Positions 11,425 to 47,530 of a stretch of 64,000 nucleotides of DNA are shown here, piece by piece. The DNA comes from an uncultured Oscillospiraceae bacterium. GTDB lineage: Bacteria; Bacillota; Clostridia; Oscillospirales; Oscillospiraceae. Below the pieces are notes generated by a model, which saw only the letters and a program-made list of their open reading frames with translations, was not told the DNA's origin and made no database searches. The stretch is from positions 1-64,000 of the forward strand of contig CANRIU010000005.1 in NCBI GenBank assembly GCA_947630755.1. Direction: 5' to 3'. The position numbers were made by a program, and so were the translations under genes. Position 1 is the first letter of the stretch. Each line of letters opens with the position of its first letter.

Positions 11425-12558
11425 TTACCAATTACTCAAAATATCATACACCGTATCCCGGAGCTTCGGATGGAGTATCTGTATCGACAGGCCGGACTCG
11501 CACATGGCCTCGGCGAAAAAAAGCGCCAACTCATTTGCCGGGTCCACGAGACAGTACGCCCCGGCGTAGCCGTCCCAGCCGAACTCCCCGGCGGGGACGC
11601 CGCTTGCACCCCTCTCTACCCGCACCCGCACACCGAGGCCGTAGGAGTAGTCCCCCCTGGTGGCGGGGCTCTCCGCCTGGAATTCCCCTCTCAGCGCCCC
11701 CAGGGCGTCGGAGGACATGAGCTTCACGCTCTCCGGTCTCAGGAGCACATAGCCGTTTTTCGCCCTTCCCCCCAGTGACAGCGCGGTGATCAGCTTCATG
11801 TAGTCGTCCACGGTGCTCATAAGCCCCGCGCCGCCGGACTCATACTCCGGGGAGAACCTGAATTTGTTGTGCTGCCCGTAGGGCCTTATGCTCCCCGGCC
11901 CCAGGTGAAGATACTGTGTGGACAGCCGCGCAAGCTGTTCCCCGGTCGGGAAGAAGGTTGTGTCCTCCATCCCCATCGGCTCCGTTATCTCCCGGCGTAT
12001 GAGCTCACTCAGCGGCATCCCGGATGCCTCCGCCAGGACCGCCCCCAGCACGTCGTGGCACAGGCTGTAGGCGAAGTGCTCCCCCGGGTCAAAGCCGAAG
12101 GGGTCCTCCGCCAGCGCCGCAGCCAGTTTCCTCGTGGAGCGCCGCCCCTCCCGGAGCGCCCGCCTCACCGCCGGGCGGTCAAGCTCGTAGTCTAGCCCCC
12201 CGGTCATGTTAAGGAGGTGGCGAACAAGCAGCGCGCCCTTCGCCGGGCGCACCCTCTCCCCCTCCCGCACGGTTATGTCCGCAAACTCCGGAAGGTACCG
12301 GCTCACAGGCGCGTCAAGGTCTATCAGCCCCCGCTCCAAAAGCCTCAGCGCCGCGGTGACGGTGAAGAGCTTCCCCGCGGAGTATATCCAGTATGTGTCC
12401 CGTGCCGACACGGGCCGTTTGCTCTCCAGATCTGCGTACCCCGCCATGTGGCGGTAGACCGTCTCCCCGCCCAGCGCCAGGGCGCAGTCGCACCCGGGTA
12501 TGGAGTACTCCGGGTAAAGACTGTCAAGGAATTTTGTGAGCCTGTCAAATCTGTCCAT
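11425..12558 (-). CDS. Serine hydrolase, beta-lactamase class C-like
   Basis: SAGKLF (SxxK) motif, YAYSLCHDVLG; no signal peptide visible; paralog of 24340-25479. Confidence 0.85.
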   Translation of the reverse strand: MDRFDRLTKFLDSLYPEYSIPGCDCALALGGETVYRHMAGYADLESKRPVSARDTYWIYSAGKLFTVTAALRLLERGLIDLDAPVSRYLPEFADITVREGERVRPAKGALLVRHLLNMTGGLDYELDRPAVRRALREGRRSTRKLAAALAEDPFGFDPGEHFAYSLCHDVLGAVLAEASGMPLSELIRREITEPMGMEDTTFFPTGEQLARLSTQYLHLGPGSIRPYGQHNKFRFSPEYESGGAGLMSTVDDYMKLITALSLGGRAKNGYVLLRPESVKLMSSDALGALRGEFQAESPATRGDYSYGLGVRVRVERGASGVPAGEFGWDGYAGAYCLVDPANELALFFAEAMCESGLSIQILHPKLRDTVYDILSNW

Positions 12559-34652: not shown

Positions 34653-35813
34653 TCAGCCCATTATCTCCCGGGCCAGGGCCTCGATCTGCGCCTCGTTCTC
34701 CGGCGTCATGGAGCCCATTATCCTCACGGAATTTTCCGCGAATTTAACGTCCCTGCACCCCTCCAGCATTGCTCTCATGGTCTTTGCCGCCATTGGCGCC
34801 CAGGAGCCGTTCTCGATAAAGCCCACAGTGCGGTTTTTGTAGCCGTGCTCCGCCAAGGTCTCGATAAACTCCCGCATGAAGGGGAATATCCCCCCGTTGT
34901 AGGTGGTCGTCGCCAGGACCATTCTCCCGTAGCGGAATGCGTCCTCCACTGCCTCCGCCATGTCGTCCCGTGCAAGGTCCGTGATGGCGGCTTTGGGGCA
35001 GCCCAGCTCCTCCAGCTTCGCCTTCAGAAGCTCCGCCGCCGCCCTTGTGTGCCCGTAGACGGAGGTGTAGGCGATGACCACGCCCTCGCTCTCCACACCG
35101 TAGCTGGACCAGATGTCATAGAGGTTTACATAATATCCTATATCCTCGGTGAGCACCGGACCGTGGAGGGGGCAGATGGCGGCAATGTCCAGCGCCGCGG
35201 CCTTTTTCAGCACCGCCTGCACCTGCTGGCCAAACTTGCCCACGATGCCGAAGTAGTACCTGCGCGCCTCGCAGGCCCAGCCCTCCTCGTCCTCCACGTC
35301 GAGGGCGCCGAATTTTCCGAACCCGTCGGCGGAGAAGAGGGTCCTGGCCTCTGGGTCGTAGGTCATGATTACCTCGGGCCAGTGGACCATTGGCGCGGCT
35401 ATGAAGCTCAGTGTGTGCCCGCCCAGGTCCAGTGTGGCGCCCCCGCCCACAACCAGGCGGCGGTCCGGGTAGTCCGTGCCGAAGTAGTTTTTCATCATCT
35501 TGAACGCCCCGGCGGAGGAGACTATCACCGCCTCGGGGTACGCCGCCATAAACGCCTCGATGGAGCCGGAGTGGTCGGGCTCCATGTGCTGCACCACCAG
35601 GTAGTCGGGCTTTCCGCCCTCCAGAGCGGCGGAGACGTTTCCGAGCCACTCGTCCGTAAAGTGCCTGTCCACGCTGTCCATGACCGCAGTCCTCTCACCA
35701 CGGACGACGTAGGAATTGTATGCCATGCCGTTTGGCACAACGTACTGCCCCTCAAAGAGGTCTATTTCGTGGTCGTTGACGCCGACGTAAATAATGTCCT
35801 TTGAAATATCCAT
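34653..35813 (-). CDS. FprA-family A-type flavoprotein (flavodiiron protein)
   Basis: VQHMEPDHSGS, CPLHGPVL, flavodoxin IAYTSVYGHTRAAAELL. Confidence 0.9.
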   Translation of the reverse strand: MDISKDIIYVGVNDHEIDLFEGQYVVPNGMAYNSYVVRGERTAVMDSVDRHFTDEWLGNVSAALEGGKPDYLVVQHMEPDHSGSIEAFMAAYPEAVIVSSAGAFKMMKNYFGTDYPDRRLVVGGGATLDLGGHTLSFIAAPMVHWPEVIMTYDPEARTLFSADGFGKFGALDVEDEEGWACEARRYYFGIVGKFGQQVQAVLKKAAALDIAAICPLHGPVLTEDIGYYVNLYDIWSSYGVESEGVVIAYTSVYGHTRAAAELLKAKLEELGCPKAAITDLARDDMAEAVEDAFRYGRMVLATTTYNGGIFPFMREFIETLAEHGYKNRTVGFIENGSWAPMAAKTMRAMLEGCRDVKFAENSVRIMGSMTPENEAQIEALAREIMG

Positions 35814-35933
35814 AAAAAAGCCTCCAAGCCTGTTTTTTTGCCGGAAAAAACTCCCGTTATCCGATATTTTATCACACTGTACTTTTTTTCGCAACTGTCT
35901 TTCGCCGTTATTTCGCAAACTGACTGAAATGCT

Positions 35934-35962
35934 TTGACACATGCTGACATATATGTTAAAAT
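35934..35962 (+). promoter_or_regulatory. Putative sigma-A promoter for the CooC/HgdAB-like operon
   Basis: TTGACA-17 nt-TAAAAT. Confidence 0.65.
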
Positions 35963-36022
35963 TACGTCAGCAGCGGACAAAAAAAGGCGGTTTACGCCGA
36001 AAAATGAATGGAGGAATGTACT

Positions 36023-36799
36023 ATGGAGGATCGCGGCGCGGTCATCATCGCGATGACCGGAAAGGGCGGAGTTGGGAAGACCTCCCTTGCAGCCATCATG
36101 GTCGGCGAGCTTGTGCGGGAATTTCCCGGAAAGCGCATCCTCGCCATCGACGCGGACCCCGCGGTGGGGCTCAGCACCGCCCTCGGGGTGGAGGTGGAGA
36201 CGACCGTTGACGACATCCGCCGGGAATTCGTCAGCACCGTGGAGGGCGGCGACAGCCGCTCCGCGCTGGAGCTTCTGGGCGACGCCCGCTTTCGGCTCTT
36301 TGACGCGCTGGTGGAGGCGGAGGGCTTCTCCTTCCTCGCCATCGGCAGGCCAGAGGCCGCCGGGTGCTACTGCAAGGTCAACTCCTACCTCAAAGACGTG
36401 ATAAGCGTCCTGTCGTCAAATTTCGACTACATAGTCATAGACGGCGAGGCCGGCATCGAGCAGGTGAACAGGCGCGTGATGGAGAAGGTCACCCACCTTG
36501 TCCTTGTCACAGACGCCAGCCGCAAGGGTGTGCAGGTCATACACACCATCCGAGATGTGGCGAGGGACCTTGTGATGTATGAGCGCGCCGGGGCTATCCT
36601 GAACCGCCTCCCCGCCTCCGCCATGGAGCGTGGCGTGGACATCGGTGACATACCCGTTCTCGCCGCCATACCCGCGGACGACGCCCTTGCGGGGCTTGAC
36701 ATCGAGGGCAGCAGCGTCCTTGAGCTCCCGGACGGCTCACCTGTCCGCGCGGGAGTGCGCCGGGCGCTTTGCGGCCTCGGGATATTAAAGGAGGAATAA
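36023..36799 (+). CDS. CooC-like MinD/ParA-type P-loop ATPase
   Basis: MTGKGGVGKTSLAA deviant Walker A; EAAGCYCKVNSYLKDVI CxC motif; IVIDGEAGIEQVNRRVMEKV. Confidence 0.85.
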   Translation: MEDRGAVIIAMTGKGGVGKTSLAAIMVGELVREFPGKRILAIDADPAVGLSTALGVEVETTVDDIRREFVSTVEGGDSRSALELLGDARFRLFDALVEAEGFSFLAIGRPEAAGCYCKVNSYLKDVISVLSSNFDYIVIDGEAGIEQVNRRVMEKVTHLVLVTDASRKGVQVIHTIRDVARDLVMYERAGAILNRLPASAMERGVDIGDIPVLAAIPADDALAGLDIEGSSVLELPDGSPVRAGVRRALCGLGILKEE

Positions 36800-36800
36800 G

Positions 36801-37985
36801 ATGAGGGACTTAAGACACCTCTACTACCTTGAAAATCTCCTTCAGGAGAACAATAACGAGCTTGTGCGAAAGGCCCGGGAGGAGGGTCGGCGCTGCGTGG
36901 GCACCGTCTGCTACCAGATCCCGGAGGTGCTTTTGAATCTCCCGGGGATATTCTCCGTGCGCCTTCGCGCTCCCCGCACTGGGTCCATGGAGATGGGCAC
37001 CTACTACATGACCTCCCTCACCTGCGAATACTGCCGCGCCCTGCTGGAGCGGGGCCTTGAGGGTGGATACAGGTTTATAGACTGCCTCATGGAGCCGGCC
37101 AGCTGCTCCCAGATGGCGGACTGCACCGAGAACCTTGAGAAGCTCGACCTTTTAGGCCCCGGCTTCTTCGTCCAACACGTCGACACCCCCATGAAGGACG
37201 ACCTGAACGGCATCGAGCACATGATAAAAATGTGCCGGGTCCGTGTCCTTGACAGGCTCCACGAGGCCTTCGGGATAGACGTCTCCGACGAGGCCATAAA
37301 AAAGGCCGTCGCCGTCCACAACGAGGTCTGCGACCTCATCACCGAGATTGGCAACTACCGGAAGGACCTGCGTCCCCGGATAACCGGGTATGAGTTTGCC
37401 GTTCTCTGCCTTGCCACATACTGCTGCCCCAAGGACCTGCTGCTGCCCATACTCCGGGAGACGGCCCAGGAGCTCCGGACCCGTGAGCCCGACGAGAAGT
37501 CCCCCTGGCGCGTGCGCGTGGCCGTCGCCGGGGCGGAGATAGACGACCCCGACTTCATAAAGCTCATCGAGGACACCGGGGCCTACGTCGCCGTGGACCG
37601 CTACTGCTTCGGCTCCTTCCCCGGCCGCAGCAGGATAGAGCTTTCGGACAACGAGGACATCCTCACCCAGATATGCCGCAAGTATGTCACCGAGTGCCAG
37701 TGCCCCAGGTTCATGAACACCTCCAAGGTCGCGGGCCGCAAGGAGTACATCGACTCTCTCGCCCGGGAGTACTCCTGCGACGGGATAATACTTCAGCAGA
37801 TAAACTTCTGCAACTTCTGGGGCTATGAGCGCGCCGGGGGGATGCATGTGCTGACTCACGACTACAGCTGGCCCGTTCTCAGCCTCGACCGCCCCTACGT
37901 TGTGGGCGTCTCCGGGCAGATTCGCACCCGTGTACAGGCATTTATCGAGCGCGTGGAGCTCAAAAAGCTGGGAGGTAACGACTGA
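36801..37985 (+). CDS. 2-hydroxyacyl-CoA dehydratase/benzoyl-CoA reductase subunit-like protein
   Basis: HgdB/BcrC-type layout with Cys-rich N-terminal half and RYCFGSFPGRSRIE...LQQINFCNFWGYE. Confidence 0.8.
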   Translation: MRDLRHLYYLENLLQENNNELVRKAREEGRRCVGTVCYQIPEVLLNLPGIFSVRLRAPRTGSMEMGTYYMTSLTCEYCRALLERGLEGGYRFIDCLMEPASCSQMADCTENLEKLDLLGPGFFVQHVDTPMKDDLNGIEHMIKMCRVRVLDRLHEAFGIDVSDEAIKKAVAVHNEVCDLITEIGNYRKDLRPRITGYEFAVLCLATYCCPKDLLLPILRETAQELRTREPDEKSPWRVRVAVAGAEIDDPDFIKLIEDTGAYVAVDRYCFGSFPGRSRIELSDNEDILTQICRKYVTECQCPRFMNTSKVAGRKEYIDSLAREYSCDGIILQQINFCNFWGYERAGGMHVLTHDYSWPVLSLDRPYVVGVSGQIRTRVQAFIERVELKKLGGND

Positions 37986-39523
37986 TGGGAAAAGCGATAA
38001 ATTCCGAGCCCCTGGGAAAATTCTACAAGGGCGGCAAGACCCGCACCCGCCGGGAGTGGCGGGGCGTCCGTGACACCTTCTACGACTACACCTGCTGGCT
38101 CCACAACTGGGGCTCCATGATAAAATTCCTTGCAAAGCCCCAGAATCTGAAGGGCTTCCTCCACTACCGCTGGATGCAGAACTATCTTGCCACCCCCGAC
38201 TTCATCGACCGCCACACCGAGGGCCTTCGGGGACCCCAGTTGAGAGTCGCCCACAAGGAGTTTGACTTCATCGTCTCCCACGTCTGCGACACCATGACCG
38301 CCATCTTCGCCGGGGACAGGGCCATCGGCGGCAAGGAGAAGGTCTGGCGCCAGACCGTGGTCATGGACGAGAACATGATGACCCAGATAATGAACGGCTT
38401 TCCCAACCTCAAGGCCAGATGCGTCCAGATACCCATCGTCTATATGCCCTCCACCGTCCAGCAGGAGGGCGTGCTCTACTACATAGACCGTGCCCAGGAG
38501 TTCGGCATCCCCGGGGACGTGTGCCCCATGCCTGCGGCGGAGCTTGGCGCGGTGCTGGAGGACGACTTCCCGAAGACCGGCATCTGCGCCCTCCAGTGCA
38601 ACACCACCTGCGACGGCTCCCTCATGGGCAACGGCATAGAGGAGCGCCGCTACGGCATCCCCACCCACCAGGTCGCCGTCCCCATCCGCTACACCGACCC
38701 CGCCACCCGGGACTACGCCGCTCAGGAGATAAAAAACGCCATAAAATTCGTGGAGGAGCAGACAGGCGAGAAGTGGGACTGGGACTACTACTTTAAAAAC
38801 ATAAGGAACTTCAACCGTGAGACGGAGTACTTCCGCCAGTGGCTGGAGGTCTCCCGCACCGAGTACCCCCAGGTCATAGGCAACAACGTGGCCCTCTACC
38901 GGGACGCCTACTACCAGGTCGCCGGAGGCCGTGACGAGGCCTTCGTTGAAAACGAGCGGGAGATTTGCGAGATAATGGAGAAGGCCTACCTCGACAGGAC
39001 CCCCGTGGTGAGCACCGTCCGCCACCGGGCAATACTCTGGGGCGTCCAGGCCCAGTACTACACCGCCTTCCCCCTGTGGCTCCAAAACTGCTGGGGAATA
39101 GTCCCCCTCATCGACATGCTGAGCCTCACCTCCACCGACATCTACAGCGAGGACGACAAAGAGCAGGCGTACTACGACATGGCGGACATGTACGCCAAGA
39201 TGAATATGCGCAACCGCTCCGAGGGCGGCTATGAGGTTGGCGTGGAGGACCTCTGGCGCTTCTGCGAGGAATTCAACGCCGACGTTGTCATAATGTACGA
39301 GCACATCGGCTGCAAGTCCATGACGGGCTACCACGGCCTTTTCGATCAGGAGGCCGCGAAGCACGGCGTCCACCTCATCTGGGTCACCCACGGCCTCATG
39401 GACCCCCGCAAGGCCAGCCGCCAGAGTATGCGCACCGATGTCAACCGCTATATGCGCGCGGTGCTCAACGAGGAGCCCTTAGACCCGTCCCTTGAGGAGT
39501 TTGACGACTCTAACGCCTGGTAA
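37985..39523 (+). CDS. 2-hydroxyacyl-CoA dehydratase/benzoyl-CoA reductase subunit-like protein
   Basis: FIVSHVCDTMTAIFAG; VVIMYEHIGCKSMTGYHG...LIWVTHGLMDPRKAS; ATGA overlap with the upstream gene. Confidence 0.8.
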   Translation: MGKAINSEPLGKFYKGGKTRTRREWRGVRDTFYDYTCWLHNWGSMIKFLAKPQNLKGFLHYRWMQNYLATPDFIDRHTEGLRGPQLRVAHKEFDFIVSHVCDTMTAIFAGDRAIGGKEKVWRQTVVMDENMMTQIMNGFPNLKARCVQIPIVYMPSTVQQEGVLYYIDRAQEFGIPGDVCPMPAAELGAVLEDDFPKTGICALQCNTTCDGSLMGNGIEERRYGIPTHQVAVPIRYTDPATRDYAAQEIKNAIKFVEEQTGEKWDWDYYFKNIRNFNRETEYFRQWLEVSRTEYPQVIGNNVALYRDAYYQVAGGRDEAFVENEREICEIMEKAYLDRTPVVSTVRHRAILWGVQAQYYTAFPLWLQNCWGIVPLIDMLSLTSTDIYSEDDKEQAYYDMADMYAKMNMRNRSEGGYEVGVEDLWRFCEEFNADVVIMYEHIGCKSMTGYHGLFDQEAAKHGVHLIWVTHGLMDPRKASRQSMRTDVNRYMRAVLNEEPLDPSLEEFDDSNAW

Positions 39524-39538
39524 TTGGAGGATACTATA

Positions 39539-40327
39539 ATGAAATATTTTGGAGGCTGCGATGTGGGCTCCACCTACACCAAGGCCGTTATACTGGATGA
39601 AAACGGAAAAATCGTGTCCCACACCACACTTCACAGCAAGATAAACCCGGAGAAATCCGCGCGCCTCGCCATGGACGATGTCCTCTCAAAGGCCGGGCTC
39701 ACAAGTGAGCGCGACCTTGCCTACCTCATCGGCACGGGCTACGGGCGCAACAAGGTCCCCTTCGCCGATGAGAACATATCCGAGATCTCCTGCCACGCCA
39801 TGGGCGTCCACGTCACCGACCCCACCGTTAAGGCAATAATCGACATCGGCGGTCAGGACGTGAAGGGCATCGCCGTGGACACCGACGGCACGGTGAAGAA
39901 CTTCGCCATGAACGACAAGTGCGCCGCCGGCACCGGCCGCTTTTACGAGGCCATGGCCCGCAGCTTTGAGATGAGCCTGGAGGAATTTTCCAATCTCTCC
40001 CTCTCCGCCAAAAACGTCATCCCCATCACCGCCCAGTGCACCGTCTTTGCCGAGAGCGAGGTCATAAGCCTCGTGGGCGAGGGCAAGCCCATGGACGAGG
40101 TCGCCGCCGGGATCCAGATGTCCGTGGCAAAGCGCTGCTTCGTCATGGCTAAAAAGGCCGGGGCCACGGACTCCATCGCCCTCACAGGCGGCTGCGCCAA
40201 GAACGCCGGGCTTAAAAAGGCCATCGAGCAGGACCTGCACCTCAAGGTCATAGAGCTTAAGACCGACCCCCAGCTCATGGGCGCCCTGGGCGCGGCTGAG
40301 TACGCCAGAAGGAAAGGCAGGAAGTGA
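39539..40327 (+). CDS. Acyl-CoA dehydratase activase (HgdC/BcrAD-like)
   Basis: GGCDVGSTYTKAVI, DIGGQDVKGI, NDKCAAGTGRF, AQCTVFAESEVISL, LTGGCAKN. Confidence 0.92.
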   Translation: MKYFGGCDVGSTYTKAVILDENGKIVSHTTLHSKINPEKSARLAMDDVLSKAGLTSERDLAYLIGTGYGRNKVPFADENISEISCHAMGVHVTDPTVKAIIDIGGQDVKGIAVDTDGTVKNFAMNDKCAAGTGRFYEAMARSFEMSLEEFSNLSLSAKNVIPITAQCTVFAESEVISLVGEGKPMDEVAAGIQMSVAKRCFVMAKKAGATDSIALTGGCAKNAGLKKAIEQDLHLKVIELKTDPQLMGALGAAEYARRKGRK

Positions 40328-40331
40328 TAAA

Positions 40332-40508
40332 ATGAAATTTTTCAGGTTATTTTTGAAAGCAGCCGCCGTCCTGGCCGGGATCTTCGCCGCGCTGACGGCC
40401 CTGTCCATGGTGGTCTACTTCTTCAACCTTGACATGAAGGCCGCGGCCCTGGCCCAGCCTCTGGTCAACAAAATATACAGCTTCAGAAAGCGTGAGCCCC
40501 TGCCGTGA
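40332..40508 (+). CDS. Small single-TM protein (58 aa)
   Basis: MKFFRLFLKAAAVLAGIFAALTALSMVVYFFNLDMKAAALAQPLVNKIYSFRKREPLP; 4-nt overlap with the next gene. Confidence 0.65.
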   Translation: MKFFRLFLKAAAVLAGIFAALTALSMVVYFFNLDMKAAALAQPLVNKIYSFRKREPLP

Positions 40509-41206
40509 CAGCGCCTCTTTTTGACGGGCTGATAGGCGAGCTTTCCGCCCTGACATCCTCCGCCCGCCCGCTGGAGCTCCGTGATTGGGAGGACGCGGGC
40601 CGACGGAATCTCGTCCTGCAGAGCGAGATGGCCTACGAGCTCGGCGCGGGCAGGCTCCCGGCGGTGAGCGTCTTTCTCGCCTCCCCGGGGGACGCGGTCC
40701 CGGAGGGCGACCGCGCCTTCCTTCTGGGTCCGGACCTCCCAGGCATCAGCGGGAACGCCCCCTACGCCCGCGCCGCCCTCATCCGCGTAAGCCCCGAGGT
40801 ATGGGAGAACGAGTCCTCCCTCTACTCCGCCCTCACCGCCCTGAAAAACGCCAGATACTCCGCAAATCCCCGGGGCTACATGCCCCGGGTCGACTCCAGC
40901 GCCGGAAGGGAGCCCGTCCGCGTGAGCCGCGGCGCCCTCTCCCGGGGCCTCGGCTTCTCCGGCGTGGCCCGCTGCTACGCCGCGGCCTACCACAGGCGCC
41001 CCGAGGCCCTTGGCGTCACCCAGATCTTCATCACCGACCCCGGCTTTGACTACGCCGCCCTGGGCGCTCTCTCCCGCCGCTCCGGGGAGATAATCGCGGC
41101 GCTGGACCACATCCTTAAGGACTTCAAAATGGACTGCTCCACCTGCTCTCTCCAAACCGTCTGTAACGAGGTGGAGGGTCTCCGGGAGCTTCACTTCAAA
41201 AAATGA
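40505..41206 (+). CDS. Protein with Cys-rich tail resembling a CODH/ACS beta-subunit-type protein
   Basis: C-terminus MDCSTCSLQTVCNEVEGLRELHFKK; translationally coupled to the operon. Confidence 0.5.
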   Translation: MTAPLFDGLIGELSALTSSARPLELRDWEDAGRRNLVLQSEMAYELGAGRLPAVSVFLASPGDAVPEGDRAFLLGPDLPGISGNAPYARAALIRVSPEVWENESSLYSALTALKNARYSANPRGYMPRVDSSAGREPVRVSRGALSRGLGFSGVARCYAAAYHRRPEALGVTQIFITDPGFDYAALGALSRRSGEIIAALDHILKDFKMDCSTCSLQTVCNEVEGLRELHFKK

Positions 41207-41211
41207 CCCAG

Positions 41212-41246
41212 CCCCCGCGAGTTTTCCCGCGGGGGGATTTTTTTGA
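41212..41246 (+). terminator. Rho-independent terminator ending the CooC/HgdAB-like operon
   Basis: cccccgcgagttttcccgcgggggga followed by ttttttt. Confidence 0.75.
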
Positions 41247-42104: not shown

Positions 42105-44384
42105 TTATTCCCTTATTACCTTCACGCCCTCCAGGCCCTCCGCCATGTCCGCCTCCCGGGAGTGGCAGGAAAACAGGATTATCTGGCGCTTTTTTCCCAG
42201 CCTCGCCAGAAGCTCCACCGCCGCCCGGCAGCGCCCGTCGTCAAAGTTAGCCAGGGCGTCGTCGAGGATTATGGGGCAGGGGTCCTCCCCTCCGAGAAGC
42301 AGCTCGCAAAGCGCCAGCCGGAGGGAGAAGTATATCTCGTCCCCGGTGCCGTCGGACAGGGCTATTGCCCGCCTCGTCTCCGGGCTCCCGGACTCCTTCG
42401 CCCCGGCCTCAAAGCCCTTGTCGAAGTACAGCCTCTCGTAGCGCCCTCCGGTCAGCTCCTCCATTATCTCCCCGGCAAGGCGGCTTACCTCCGGCGAGAA
42501 CCGCGTCTGGAGCTCGGTGTTGGCCTCCCCCAGCGTCTCTATCGCCAGCGTCAGCGCCGCGTAGCTCCGCTGCTCGCTCTCGAGCCGCTCCGTAAGCGCC
42601 TGGATCCGCCCCTCGATGACCGCCGGGTCCCCCAGCGTCCTCTGGGCGCCAAGAGCCAGGTCGTAGCGGCTCCTGTCCGCCGCCATCTGGGCCCGGGCCC
42701 GCTCCAGGGCTGCGACGGTGTCCTCCCTGTTTCTCAGGGGCATGGGCAGGTATGTGTCGTCCTCCTCCCCGTCCCCGTCGTAGGATGCCGCCAGCGTCTC
42801 ATATACGTTTCGGGCGGCGACGGCGTCAAACTCCGCCTTTGTCAGGGCCGCGATGGTCCGCTCCGTCTCCGAAAGGGCCTCCATTATCTCCTCGCCGGAG
42901 GTCACCTCCGGCATGAATGCCTTGAGCTTCTCCACTGCCCTCTCCCCCGCCTCCTGGGCGGCGGCTCCGGCGCTCTCATAGGCCTGCCGGGCTGAGTCCC
43001 TGGCGGCGCGCTTCTGCTCCTCCTCCCGGCACACAAGGCTGTACGCCCCCAGAAGTGCCGAGAGCTTCTCCACGGACTGGACGCCGTACTTCTCAAGCAG
43101 CTCCCGGAGCTCGTCCCCGGCATTCCTCCGCTGGGGGAGCTTAATGAACATAAGCGCCAGCCCCGCCGCGCCCAGAAGAAGCGACACGATTATTCCCGGC
43201 AGATTAAACTTAAGTCCCTCGGCGGCCCCGCCCAGTATCCCCGGCAGGAGCCCCGTTGTCAGCGCCAGCCCCACAAGGGCTATGGCGCATATCACGGCGG
43301 GAATAATCTTCGGTATGCGCGGAGCTTTCACCCGCGCCGCCTTCGTCTCAAGCTCCCTTCCCCGGGCAATGTCGGCGTTGACCTCCTTCTCGTCACTGCC
43401 GTTTAAGGGCGACGCCTCCCGCCTTGTCGCCGCGTCCACCAGCTCCTTCTCCGCCCGCCACAGGGCCCGCTCGGCGTCGTTTGCCACCTTTTTAAGGGGC
43501 ATCACCGCCGCCGCGGCCTCCCGGATGTCGTTTATGTCCTCCCGGGTCATGCGGTGACCGTTCCTGGTGACAAGCTTATCGAGCCTCGCGGCCTCCGCCT
43601 CCGTCTCCTCGGCGGCCTTTCGCGCCTCCCGGAGCTTCCGGGCGGCCGCCCGCCTGTCCAGCTTATCGTGGGTCACAAGGTCATTTTCCATGCCCCTTAT
43701 CTGCGTCTCCTGCCGCTCGAGGGAGAATCGCAGGCTCGCCAGCTCCTCGCTGGAGCTCTCTATCCGCTCCAGCGCCGCCCGGCTCTCCTTTATCTCCTGC
43801 TCTATGGCGGGGATGGAGCCGGACTTGTTGTATTTGAGCTTCCTCTGCCAGCGCCGCAGGGCCTCGCCCGCGTCGCTGAAGCTCGTGTCCTCGTCGCCGG
43901 AGGAGACTATCCCCTGTATCTTCCGCTCCAGCTCCCCCGTCTGGTTCACGCGGATGTCCAGCCGACGGATAAACGCCGTGCGCTCAAAGACCTGCTTTGA
44001 CACGCCCGTGAGCTTCTCCCCGGCGTTCTCGCCGTTCATGTCCTCAATAAACTCCGCCGTCCCGGTGTAGACAGCGAAGAAGTTCTTCATGGGGCTCGCG
44101 CCCTTTGAGGTCCGCTGGATGGTCACGCTCCTGCCGGCGTGCTCCGCCTCCATGGTCCCCACCATGGCGCCGCCGTCCCAGGGCCGATAGCGGGTCTTAA
44201 CGCTCAGCGACCCCGCCTTATCCCGCTCCGAGGTGTCCACCCCGTAGAGCATGGCGTTTAAAAACGCGCACCAGGTGGTCTTTCCGTACTCGTTGGGCGC
44301 GTTTATCACCGTAAGCCCCGGTCCGGGCTCAAGAGTGGCGTTTTTGAGCTTCCCGAAGGTCGCCGTGAGCTTCTTTATCTTCAC
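42105..44384 (-). CDS. SbcC/YhaN-like AAA ATPase
   Basis: NAPNEYGKTTWCAFLNAMLYG Walker A; coiled coil; PIILDDALANFDDGRCRAA Walker B. Confidence 0.87.
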   Translation of the reverse strand: MKIKKLTATFGKLKNATLEPGPGLTVINAPNEYGKTTWCAFLNAMLYGVDTSERDKAGSLSVKTRYRPWDGGAMVGTMEAEHAGRSVTIQRTSKGASPMKNFFAVYTGTAEFIEDMNGENAGEKLTGVSKQVFERTAFIRRLDIRVNQTGELERKIQGIVSSGDEDTSFSDAGEALRRWQRKLKYNKSGSIPAIEQEIKESRAALERIESSSEELASLRFSLERQETQIRGMENDLVTHDKLDRRAAARKLREARKAAEETEAEAARLDKLVTRNGHRMTREDINDIREAAAAVMPLKKVANDAERALWRAEKELVDAATRREASPLNGSDEKEVNADIARGRELETKAARVKAPRIPKIIPAVICAIALVGLALTTGLLPGILGGAAEGLKFNLPGIIVSLLLGAAGLALMFIKLPQRRNAGDELRELLEKYGVQSVEKLSALLGAYSLVCREEEQKRAARDSARQAYESAGAAAQEAGERAVEKLKAFMPEVTSGEEIMEALSETERTIAALTKAEFDAVAARNVYETLAASYDGDGEEDDTYLPMPLRNREDTVAALERARAQMAADRSRYDLALGAQRTLGDPAVIEGRIQALTERLESEQRSYAALTLAIETLGEANTELQTRFSPEVSRLAGEIMEELTGGRYERLYFDKGFEAGAKESGSPETRRAIALSDGTGDEIYFSLRLALCELLLGGEDPCPIILDDALANFDDGRCRAAVELLARLGKKRQIILFSCHSREADMAEGLEGVKVIRE

Positions 44385-45469
44385 CTTCCCGCCTCCTCCC
44401 TGCCCTCCAGGACAGCCGCGCCGTACCTTGCCGCCGCGAGAATGATTTTCCGCTCCTCCTCGTCCTGCTCCCCGTCGTATCTCTCCCGCAGTCTCTTGAG
44501 GAACATCCCCCGCAGGCTGTCCTCCCCGGCGCCCTCCCAGACGTCCCTCGCCTGACGAACAGCGCTCTTCACCGTGACATGGTAGAATTTATCAGCCACC
44601 GCCTCCCGGATGGCTTCGGTGTCCGCCTCCCCGGAAAACTCGCCCTTGAGGAGTATCCTGCCGATGTCCCGGGGGAAGCCCTCCCCCACGGCGCGCTTTA
44701 CCGCCTCCAGGGCGTCCCGCTCCCCGGTGAGGTCCGCCTCGATTATCCTGTACTCCCTGCCGCCGATGGGAACGAAGTCCAGCTCCGCCCGCCCCCGGTC
44801 CAGGGTCCCCTTGATATAGCCCTTCGGCCCCGTCTCGTCAAAGCCCCGCCCCTCCAGACACCCGGGGTAGGCGTAGTACGTCTCCCCCGCCTTTTTTATG
44901 CCGGAGAAGGTGTGGACGTGCCCCAGCGCCAGATACGCAAGCCCCGTCCTCGCTATCTCGTCCTCTGTCACCGCGTTGTAGCGGCTTCTCGCCGCCACAT
45001 CCCCGTGGACCACCGCCAGCTCCAGAAAGTCCGTTTTTCCCAGACTGAAGTGTGACAGCAGCGGGTCGCAGGAGCCGGAGGAGAACCCCGCTCCCCACAC
45101 CCGCACCCCCAGCTCCGGTATCTCCACCGGGCGTATCTGGGGCGTCTTGAAAATATGTACGTTCTCCGGAAGCTCCATAAATGCGTAGGGAGATCTCGCC
45201 GTGTAGTAGTCGTGGTTTCCCGGGGCGATAAACACCCTGGCCTTCATCCCCGAAAGCACCGCCTTCAGCGTCTCGGTGGTCTCCCAGTACCCGGCCCCCG
45301 TGTCAAAAAGGTCCCCGGCGAGTAGCACGATGTCCACGTCCTCCGCCGCGTCGGCAAGCTTAAGCAGAAGCTCCCTCTGCTCCGCCCTGCGCTGTGCGGC
45401 CTTCTCCTCCGGCAGCGAGTAAAAGGGTGAGTCCATATGGAAGTCCGCCGCGTGGAGTATTTTTATCAT
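44381..45469 (-). CDS. SbcD-like metallophosphoesterase
   Basis: MIKILHAADFHMDSPF, LLAGDLFD, APGNHDYY, LGHVHTF. Confidence 0.9.
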   Translation of the reverse strand: MIKILHAADFHMDSPFYSLPEEKAAQRRAEQRELLLKLADAAEDVDIVLLAGDLFDTGAGYWETTETLKAVLSGMKARVFIAPGNHDYYTARSPYAFMELPENVHIFKTPQIRPVEIPELGVRVWGAGFSSGSCDPLLSHFSLGKTDFLELAVVHGDVAARSRYNAVTEDEIARTGLAYLALGHVHTFSGIKKAGETYYAYPGCLEGRGFDETGPKGYIKGTLDRGRAELDFVPIGGREYRIIEADLTGERDALEAVKRAVGEGFPRDIGRILLKGEFSGEADTEAIREAVADKFYHVTVKSAVRQARDVWEGAGEDSLRGMFLKRLRERYDGEQDEEERKIILAAARYGAAVLEGREEAGR

Positions 45470-45518
45470 CTGTGGTTCCACCTCCAAAAGGTCATCCTGT
45501 CAAAAGCTCAAAATCAAT

Positions 45519-45551
45519 ATTTTTTCCATCGACATGCCCGTCGGAAAAAAT
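45519..45551. repeat. 33-nt palindromic element, copy A
   Basis: attttttccatcgacatgcccgtcggaaaaaat. Confidence 0.65.
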
Positions 45552-45564
45552 CCGCAGTTCCCCC

Positions 45565-45595
45565 TGTCGAAAAAGCCCTTCGGGCTTTTTCGACA
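45565..45595. repeat. Dispersed palindromic repeat, copy 3
   Basis: tgtcgaaaaagcccttcgggctttttcgaca. Confidence 0.75.
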
Positions 45596-47180: not shown

Positions 47181-47340
47181 CTCGGCACCTCCGTGGCAAT
47201 AAAATTATCTTCATATTATAACATATTTCTCCCCCGCGGAAAACCCCTTTTTTACAAAAAGCATTAATTGTAAAATATATTGATTATCCCCGCCGGCATA
47301 TGCCGACGGGGACAGCTTGTAAAATACTCAATTTTTTAAT

Positions 47341-47373
47341 ATTTTTTCCGGCGACATGTGCGTCGGAAAAAAT
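47341..47373. repeat. 33-nt palindromic element, copy B
   Basis: attttttccggcgacatgtgcgtcggaaaaaat. Confidence 0.65.
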
Positions 47374-47484
47374 ACCTTTTGTCGCACAAGCGTGCGGCCC
47401 TTCGGGCCGTGCGCGCAGGGCGACAGCAGGGGAATTTCGCGTGAATTTCGCAAAATTCACGCGGGATTCCCCGCACGTCCCCCT

Positions 47485-47515
47485 TGTCGGAAAAGCCCGC
47501 AGGGCTTTTTCGACA
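47485..47515. repeat. Dispersed palindromic repeat, copy 4
   Basis: tgtcggaaaagcccgcagggctttttcgaca. Confidence 0.7.
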
Positions 47516-47530
47516 GTCTGCCCTAATGGC

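Follow-up and report, generated by a model that had tools for sequence, protein, structure and literature searches.

A compact operon and its surroundings

Six genes, g1 to g6, occupy positions 36023-41206 of the window, the name used here for the whole 64,000-nucleotide stretch of DNA analysed, which comes from an uncultured bacterium of gut type, and form one compact operon. The features of the locus are given below.

35934..35962, + strand: sigma-70-type promoter, TTGACA-17-TAAAAT, 11 of 12 matches, with TG before the -10 element
36023..36799, + strand: g1, CooC-like P-loop ATPase with the deviant Walker A GKGGVGKT and a CxC motif (C115, C117)
36801..37985, + strand: g2, HgdB/BzdN-like subunit with six invariant Cys (37, 75, 102, 269, 301, 337)
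37985..39523, + strand: g3, BzdO/HgdA-like subunit with Cys 180, 209 and 443 and a conserved, mainly helical N-terminal region
39539..40327, + strand: g4, BadF/HgdC-type activase with NDKC (C128) and QCTVFAES (C167)
40332..40508, + strand: g5, 58-aa single-helix membrane peptide with a conserved Y..NLDMK...Y
40505..41206, + strand: g6, relative of the acetyl-CoA synthase (CdhC) middle domain, with a GTG start and a CxxCx5C tail (C211, C214, C220)
41212..41242, + strand: intrinsic terminator, 8-bp all-GC stem followed by a T run

An earlier note on this DNA had described six co-directional genes with tiny overlaps or gaps, preceded by a near-consensus promoter and followed by a terminator. This description was borne out in full, with all six frames present on the same strand and both signals at the positions listed. 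From g1 to g6 the junctions are, in order, a 1-nt gap, a 1-nt overlap, a 15-nt gap, a 4-nt gap and a 4-nt overlap. An in-frame ATG for g1 also occurs at 36008, yet GGAGG precedes 36023. Third-position GC was 78-87% in each of the six genes, which fits coding sequence in a window of 61% GC. Between 30 and 50 kb in the window, Rfam gave no match.

Divergent from the operon, at 34653-35819 on the - strand, lies a gene for a flavodiiron-type protein, which combines an ODP beta-lactamase with a flavodoxin; beside the sister-species operon, no DNA matching this gene was found. A probable SbcCD-type pair, made up of a calcineurin-like phosphoesterase and an AAA_23 (SbcC-like) protein, is encoded at 42105-45487 (- strand). 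Intergenic DNA at 45498-45595 and 47313-47519 of the window carries a dispersed repeat with inverted arms (about 84% identical), which is also seen at 12143-12345 of the sister-species locus (L018), where it lies just downstream of the operon. The repeat has no Rfam match and is possibly a small mobile or palindromic element.

Cluster ligands of the two-subunit core

Both g2 and g3 matched the Pfam family HGD-D (5e-77 and 6.5e-38, respectively), in agreement with their first description as HgdAB/benzoyl-CoA reductase-like subunits. The [8Fe-9S] ligands of BzdN are Cys36/73/100/263/293/327, and the [4Fe-4S] ligands of BzdO are Cys95/128/380 (PMC11971306). When the BzdN ligands were carried over by alignment and mapped by counting, they fell on C37, C75, C102, C269, C301 and C337 of g2; these six cysteines are kept in all 32 sequences examined, paralogues included, with one residue unreadable. 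The dehydratase counterpart HadC has no Cys at the positions aligned with g2 37 and 269. For g3, C180 and C443 align with C95 and C380 of BzdO, and C209 aligns with the Cys of ETTCDG in DCCP, being one residue off C128 in the BzdO alignment. All three are invariant, again with paralogues included. Another cysteine of g3, C369, is likewise invariant in g3 and its paralogues and lies outside the aligned cluster ligands. The g3 model (pLDDT 84.8) gave significant fold matches only to BCR, HAD and DCCP proteins, with BzdO first and an identity of about 16% to the BzdO-type structure. By homology, as judged from ligand alignment, conservation and the g3 fold matches, the predicted cluster of g2 is a BzdN-like double-cubane [8Fe-9S] and that of g3 a BzdO-like open-site [4Fe-4S].

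Scores against the curated family models all lay below cut-off: 66 versus 700 bits for HAD, 88 versus 454 (TIGR03190) and 20 versus 449 (TIGR03191) for Bcr/Bzd, and 114 and 42 versus 350 for DCCP (NF040772). The single activase gene of the operon, g4, had been called canonical from the letters alone, and it matched Pfam BcrAD_BadFG at 5e-57. In g5, proposed at the same time to be a membrane peptide, one conserved hydrophobic stretch was indeed found, together with an invariant Y..N.D.K...Y pattern.

The operon was then compared with characterized members of the superfamily. With class I benzoyl-CoA reductase (BzdNOPQ/MbdONPQ; 8s02, 9gai) it shares unlike subunits, the combination of a six-Cys [8Fe-9S] with a three-Cys open-site [4Fe-4S], and an ATP-dependent activase; it differs in having one activase gene rather than two different ones, in lacking a nearby aromatic CoA pathway and in adding CooC, ACS-like and membrane proteins, and the sequence likeness is distant. 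DCCP/DCCP-R (6eno, 7yyl) has the double-cubane ligands seen in g2 and an activase-type reductase, whereas DCCP is one homodimeric protein with a double cubane in each subunit; g2 and g3 are unlike subunits, and g3 has half the ligands (three). HadBC with HadI (3o3m) is of the same superfamily, with a three-Cys site in the larger subunit and a single activase, but the dehydratase has an incomplete ligand set ([4Fe-5S]) where g2 has the six-Cys double-cubane set, and the operon has extra maturation-type genes and no CoA transferase.

The last comparison bears on whether the locus encodes a standard 2-hydroxyacyl-CoA dehydratase (HgdAB or HadBC plus activase), its CoA transferase and downstream genes lying elsewhere. 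The common fold and superfamily, and the lone activase gene as in HAD systems, would suit such an enzyme. The complete g2 cysteine set, extending to the two positions at which HadC has other residues, rules it out as the best reading, and the HAD model score points the same way. Nor were dehydratase-pathway genes (CoA transferase, fermentation) found on either side of the operon in the window or among the annotated neighbours of the other loci described below; CoA transferase, acyl-CoA dehydrogenase and Etf genes, noted before as not adjacent, are missing from the flanking window genes. Furthermore, we know of no HAD system that has a CooC, an ACS domain or a membrane peptide among its parts. 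An ordinary dehydratase is unlikely.

CooC-like and acetyl-CoA synthase-derived proteins

g1 matched the MinD/ParA/CbiA families. Among solved structures it is closest to 3kje, the CooC1 of Carboxydothermus hydrogenoformans (E 1.3e-12), and the two align at the deviant Walker A as well as at the CYC motif. The CooC-type character first read from the deviant Walker A and a GCYC motif therefore stands, GKGGVGKT and GCYC both being present and CooC1 being the best solved relative. In CooC1, GKGGVGKTT forms the ADP site and Cys112/Cys114 the metal site, although nickel binding has not been demonstrated for every CooC (PMC6006190). Where g1 departs from CooC1 is in its setting: its operon has no CODH, and its host genomes mostly have none. 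CooS was not found in six of the seven g3-positive genomes searched, including that of the window (89% complete); three of these six are 99-100% complete. The seventh (G276) has two CODHs, and it also has two further CooC-type proteins, which scored far lower against the g1 profile. By analogy with CooC1, nickel insertion is a candidate role for g1.

For g6, a profile built from 27 members was searched against solved structures and gave significant E-values only for acetyl-CoA synthase/CdhC (best 6e-5). Its AlphaFold model (pLDDT 89.9) matched 23 ACS/CdhC chains in Foldseek at E <=0.001, the best at 3.7e-9, and no match outside ACS/CdhC fell below E 0.28. Pfam CdhC was matched singly by 23 of the 27 members at E <=0.01; the window's copy alone did not match, and taken singly it matched no curated family. 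Profile, Pfam and fold thus agree on the ACS likeness suspected from the first reading, and the CxxCx5C tail reported there is invariant across the 27 homologues. In an alignment with ACS proteins of other genomes, C211, C214 and C220 of g6 coincide with the first three cubane cysteines of YSCTLCQSFAPNHVC. The fourth cubane Cys and the CGC nickel site are missing, because g6 ends at that point, and a standard Ni-Ni-[4Fe-4S] centre is therefore not possible. Compared with AcsB/CdhC (PF03598), g6 retains the fold of the middle domain together with cubane cysteines one to three, but at 233 aa against about 700 it lacks, besides the fourth Cys and CGC, the other ACS domains. As judged from sequence and model, g6 is not an ACS but a domain derived from one, bearing a three-cysteine loop.

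The occurrence of a CooC-like g1 and an ACS-like g6 where CooS was not found raises the idea of a CO/CO2-type enzyme, in which an ATP-driven reductase would take the place of CO dehydrogenase and g6 would be the remnant of an acetyl-CoA synthase partner. A Lachnospiraceae acetogen has been reported with CODH activity and no CODH gene (PMC7000372), which would fit, but nothing was found that ties this acetogen to the operon. The A-cluster of g6 is incomplete, one g3-positive genome also has ordinary CODH, and we consider a CO/CO2-type enzyme highly unlikely.

Recurring gene sets and a proposed ATP-driven reductase

To place the operon among bacteria, 85,462 species genomes were scanned for g3, giving 43 loci in Lachnospiraceae, Oscillospiraceae, Clostridium, Erysipelotrichaceae, Mogibacterium and Spirochaetes. 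The earlier note had let its proposal depend on a conserved neighbourhood, and the six-gene set is kept together in 26 of the 43 loci, many of the remainder being cut by contig ends; among the 27 loci flanked on each side by at least 3 kb, 21 have it. Such recurrence in other genomes is far beyond chance. Of 288 genomes of Clostridia, five were found to contain g3, and these are also exactly the ones with the short g6.

Smaller sets were also observed. Eight loci (L048-L052, L054-L056) have g2-g3-g5 without g1, g4 and g6, three of them cut by a contig end close to the module, and one locus (L059) has g4-g2-g3-g5. Besides a complete operon, one genome (G315) has two more g2-g3-g5 sets but only a single g1 and a single g6; another (G037) has three such sets and one g1. 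As up to three g2-g3-g5 sets go with a single g1 and g6, g2-g3-g5 look like the enzyme, and g1, g4 and g6 like common activation and maturation parts.

In a quick g3 tree with long branches, L086 goes with L136a and L085 with L136b, which pairs the paralogues of two families; either the duplications are old or the paralogues moved together. Spirochaetes g3 sequences fall among those of Clostridia, which suggests transfer. Within the genus of the window's species, g3 was found in only 2 of 34 genomes, that species and one relative, between which 83%-identical DNA spans 36010-41204 and ends at the operon edges; the operon thus lies in different surroundings in the two. Flanking genes vary by locus and include oligopeptide ABC transporters, NAPRTase, MsbA-type transporters, DltA and glycosidases, and for this reason the reading of a substrate from gene neighbours was dropped. 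Recurrent neighbours are limited to GntR-family regulators, mostly FCD-type (6 loci), a hint that a small organic compound controls the operon. In the genome with CODH, the upstream side of the operon (L138, 2-5772) has genes for an aldehyde ferredoxin oxidoreductase, accompanied by a small ThiS/MoaD-like gene, and for GAF/PAS and sigma-54 activators.

An IsrA-like flavoenzyme was found at 21 of the 27 well-flanked loci, HypA at 14 of the 43 and HypB at 11. The genome of the window (G000) has a HypB-IsrA-HypA operon on another contig (C2; L082 6890-10740, - strand), while a search of it for a [NiFe]-hydrogenase large subunit gave none; an isr-type system is thus present in a genome with neither this subunit nor CO dehydrogenase detected. 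Nearly full-length IsrA-like flavoenzymes number five in G036 and three in G037. In isoprene reduction, HypA/HypB have been proposed to serve IsrA, and IsrA to take nickel at a six-Cys site (PMC10134865). The isr operon of Acetobacterium wieringae (PMC10134865) resembles the present case in its IsrA and HypA/HypB, found beside many g1-g6 operons and elsewhere in the window's genome, but its five genes include none of g1-g6.

Given these neighbours, g1-g6 might instead build or load a Ni-Fe-S centre for the adjacent IsrA-like flavoenzyme and reduce no metabolite of their own. The proximity of IsrA, HypA and HypB, the nickel site proposed for IsrA and the HypB-IsrA-HypA operon of the window's genome would all accord with such a role. 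Close IsrA relatives, however, occur in 22 of the 288 Clostridia genomes against five for g3, and 19 of these 22 are without g3. IsrA is therefore independent of g3; g3 keeps company with IsrA, and a dependence of IsrA on g3 is not implied. Several diverged g2-g3-g5 paralogues per genome also suggest specialisation for different substrates more than a single assembly line, and a cofactor-building function for IsrA appears improbable. That HypA/HypB go with IsrA, which is widespread without g3, counts as well against a nickel reading of g1-g6, as do the ligands missing from g6 and the fact that a CooC-like ATPase need not carry nickel. The clues to nickel, namely a CooC-like g1 without CooS, an ACS-derived g6 and the IsrA/HypA/HypB neighbours, are circumstantial.

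On balance we favour, with moderate confidence, a two-subunit, ATP-driven reductase of very low potential, a member of the benzoyl-CoA reductase I/2-hydroxyacyl-CoA dehydratase/DCCP superfamily, equipped with nickel-type maturation. A reductase is well supported by the predicted ligands and their conservation; the sequence itself shows the protein families, the ligands of the clusters, a hydrophobic helix, the operon and a single g1 for several g2-g3-g5 sets. BzdO-type subunits bind CoA esters, which weighs against this explanation. The earlier note had offered a reductase or a metallocofactor assembly system as alternatives to a normal dehydratase. Its doubt about the dehydratase holds, and in place of its either/or the evidence favours both at once, with g2, g3 and g5 as the core, g4 as activase and g1 and g6 as maturation-type proteins.

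How electrons would flow, how the substrate would be reduced, where nickel would come in and what g1, g5 and g6 would do are inferred as follows. Electrons from NAD(P)H or ferredoxin, perhaps via IsrA, would reach the g4 activase, a dimer of which would use ATP to pass single electrons into the g2 double-cubane [8Fe-9S]. This cluster would store electrons and hand them to the open-site [4Fe-4S] of g3, where the substrate would be reduced, and the g5 helix would tether the complex to the membrane. The CooC-like g1 and ACS-derived g6 may load or check a metal, probably nickel, whose site would be either on the enzyme or on g6. Single copies of g1 and g6 among up to three g2-g3-g5 sets are what would be expected if g1 and g6 activate or mature interchangeable g2-g3-g5 enzymes.

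More tentatively, and with considerable doubt, the ATP-driven reductase could be dependent on nickel and would then be the first in its superfamily to have a heterometal site (Ni-Fe-S); its own CooC and an ACS-derived protein would mature it, and it would have diversified into several substrate-specific enzymes served by one maturation and activation set. ATP-driven electron activation and nickel active sites are among the strongest reducing strategies in biology, and to our knowledge the two have not been seen together in this superfamily. In the open literature searched, itself incomplete, no account of the operon turned up.

An unrecognised reduction in anaerobic metabolism is suggested by the presence of the operon in gut and rumen bacteria that mostly lack CO dehydrogenase. 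Its proteins offer a concrete means of asking whether parts resembling CooC and ACS also serve enzymes besides CODH/ACS, and, if nickel is truly used, the operon would encode a new kind of metal enzyme.
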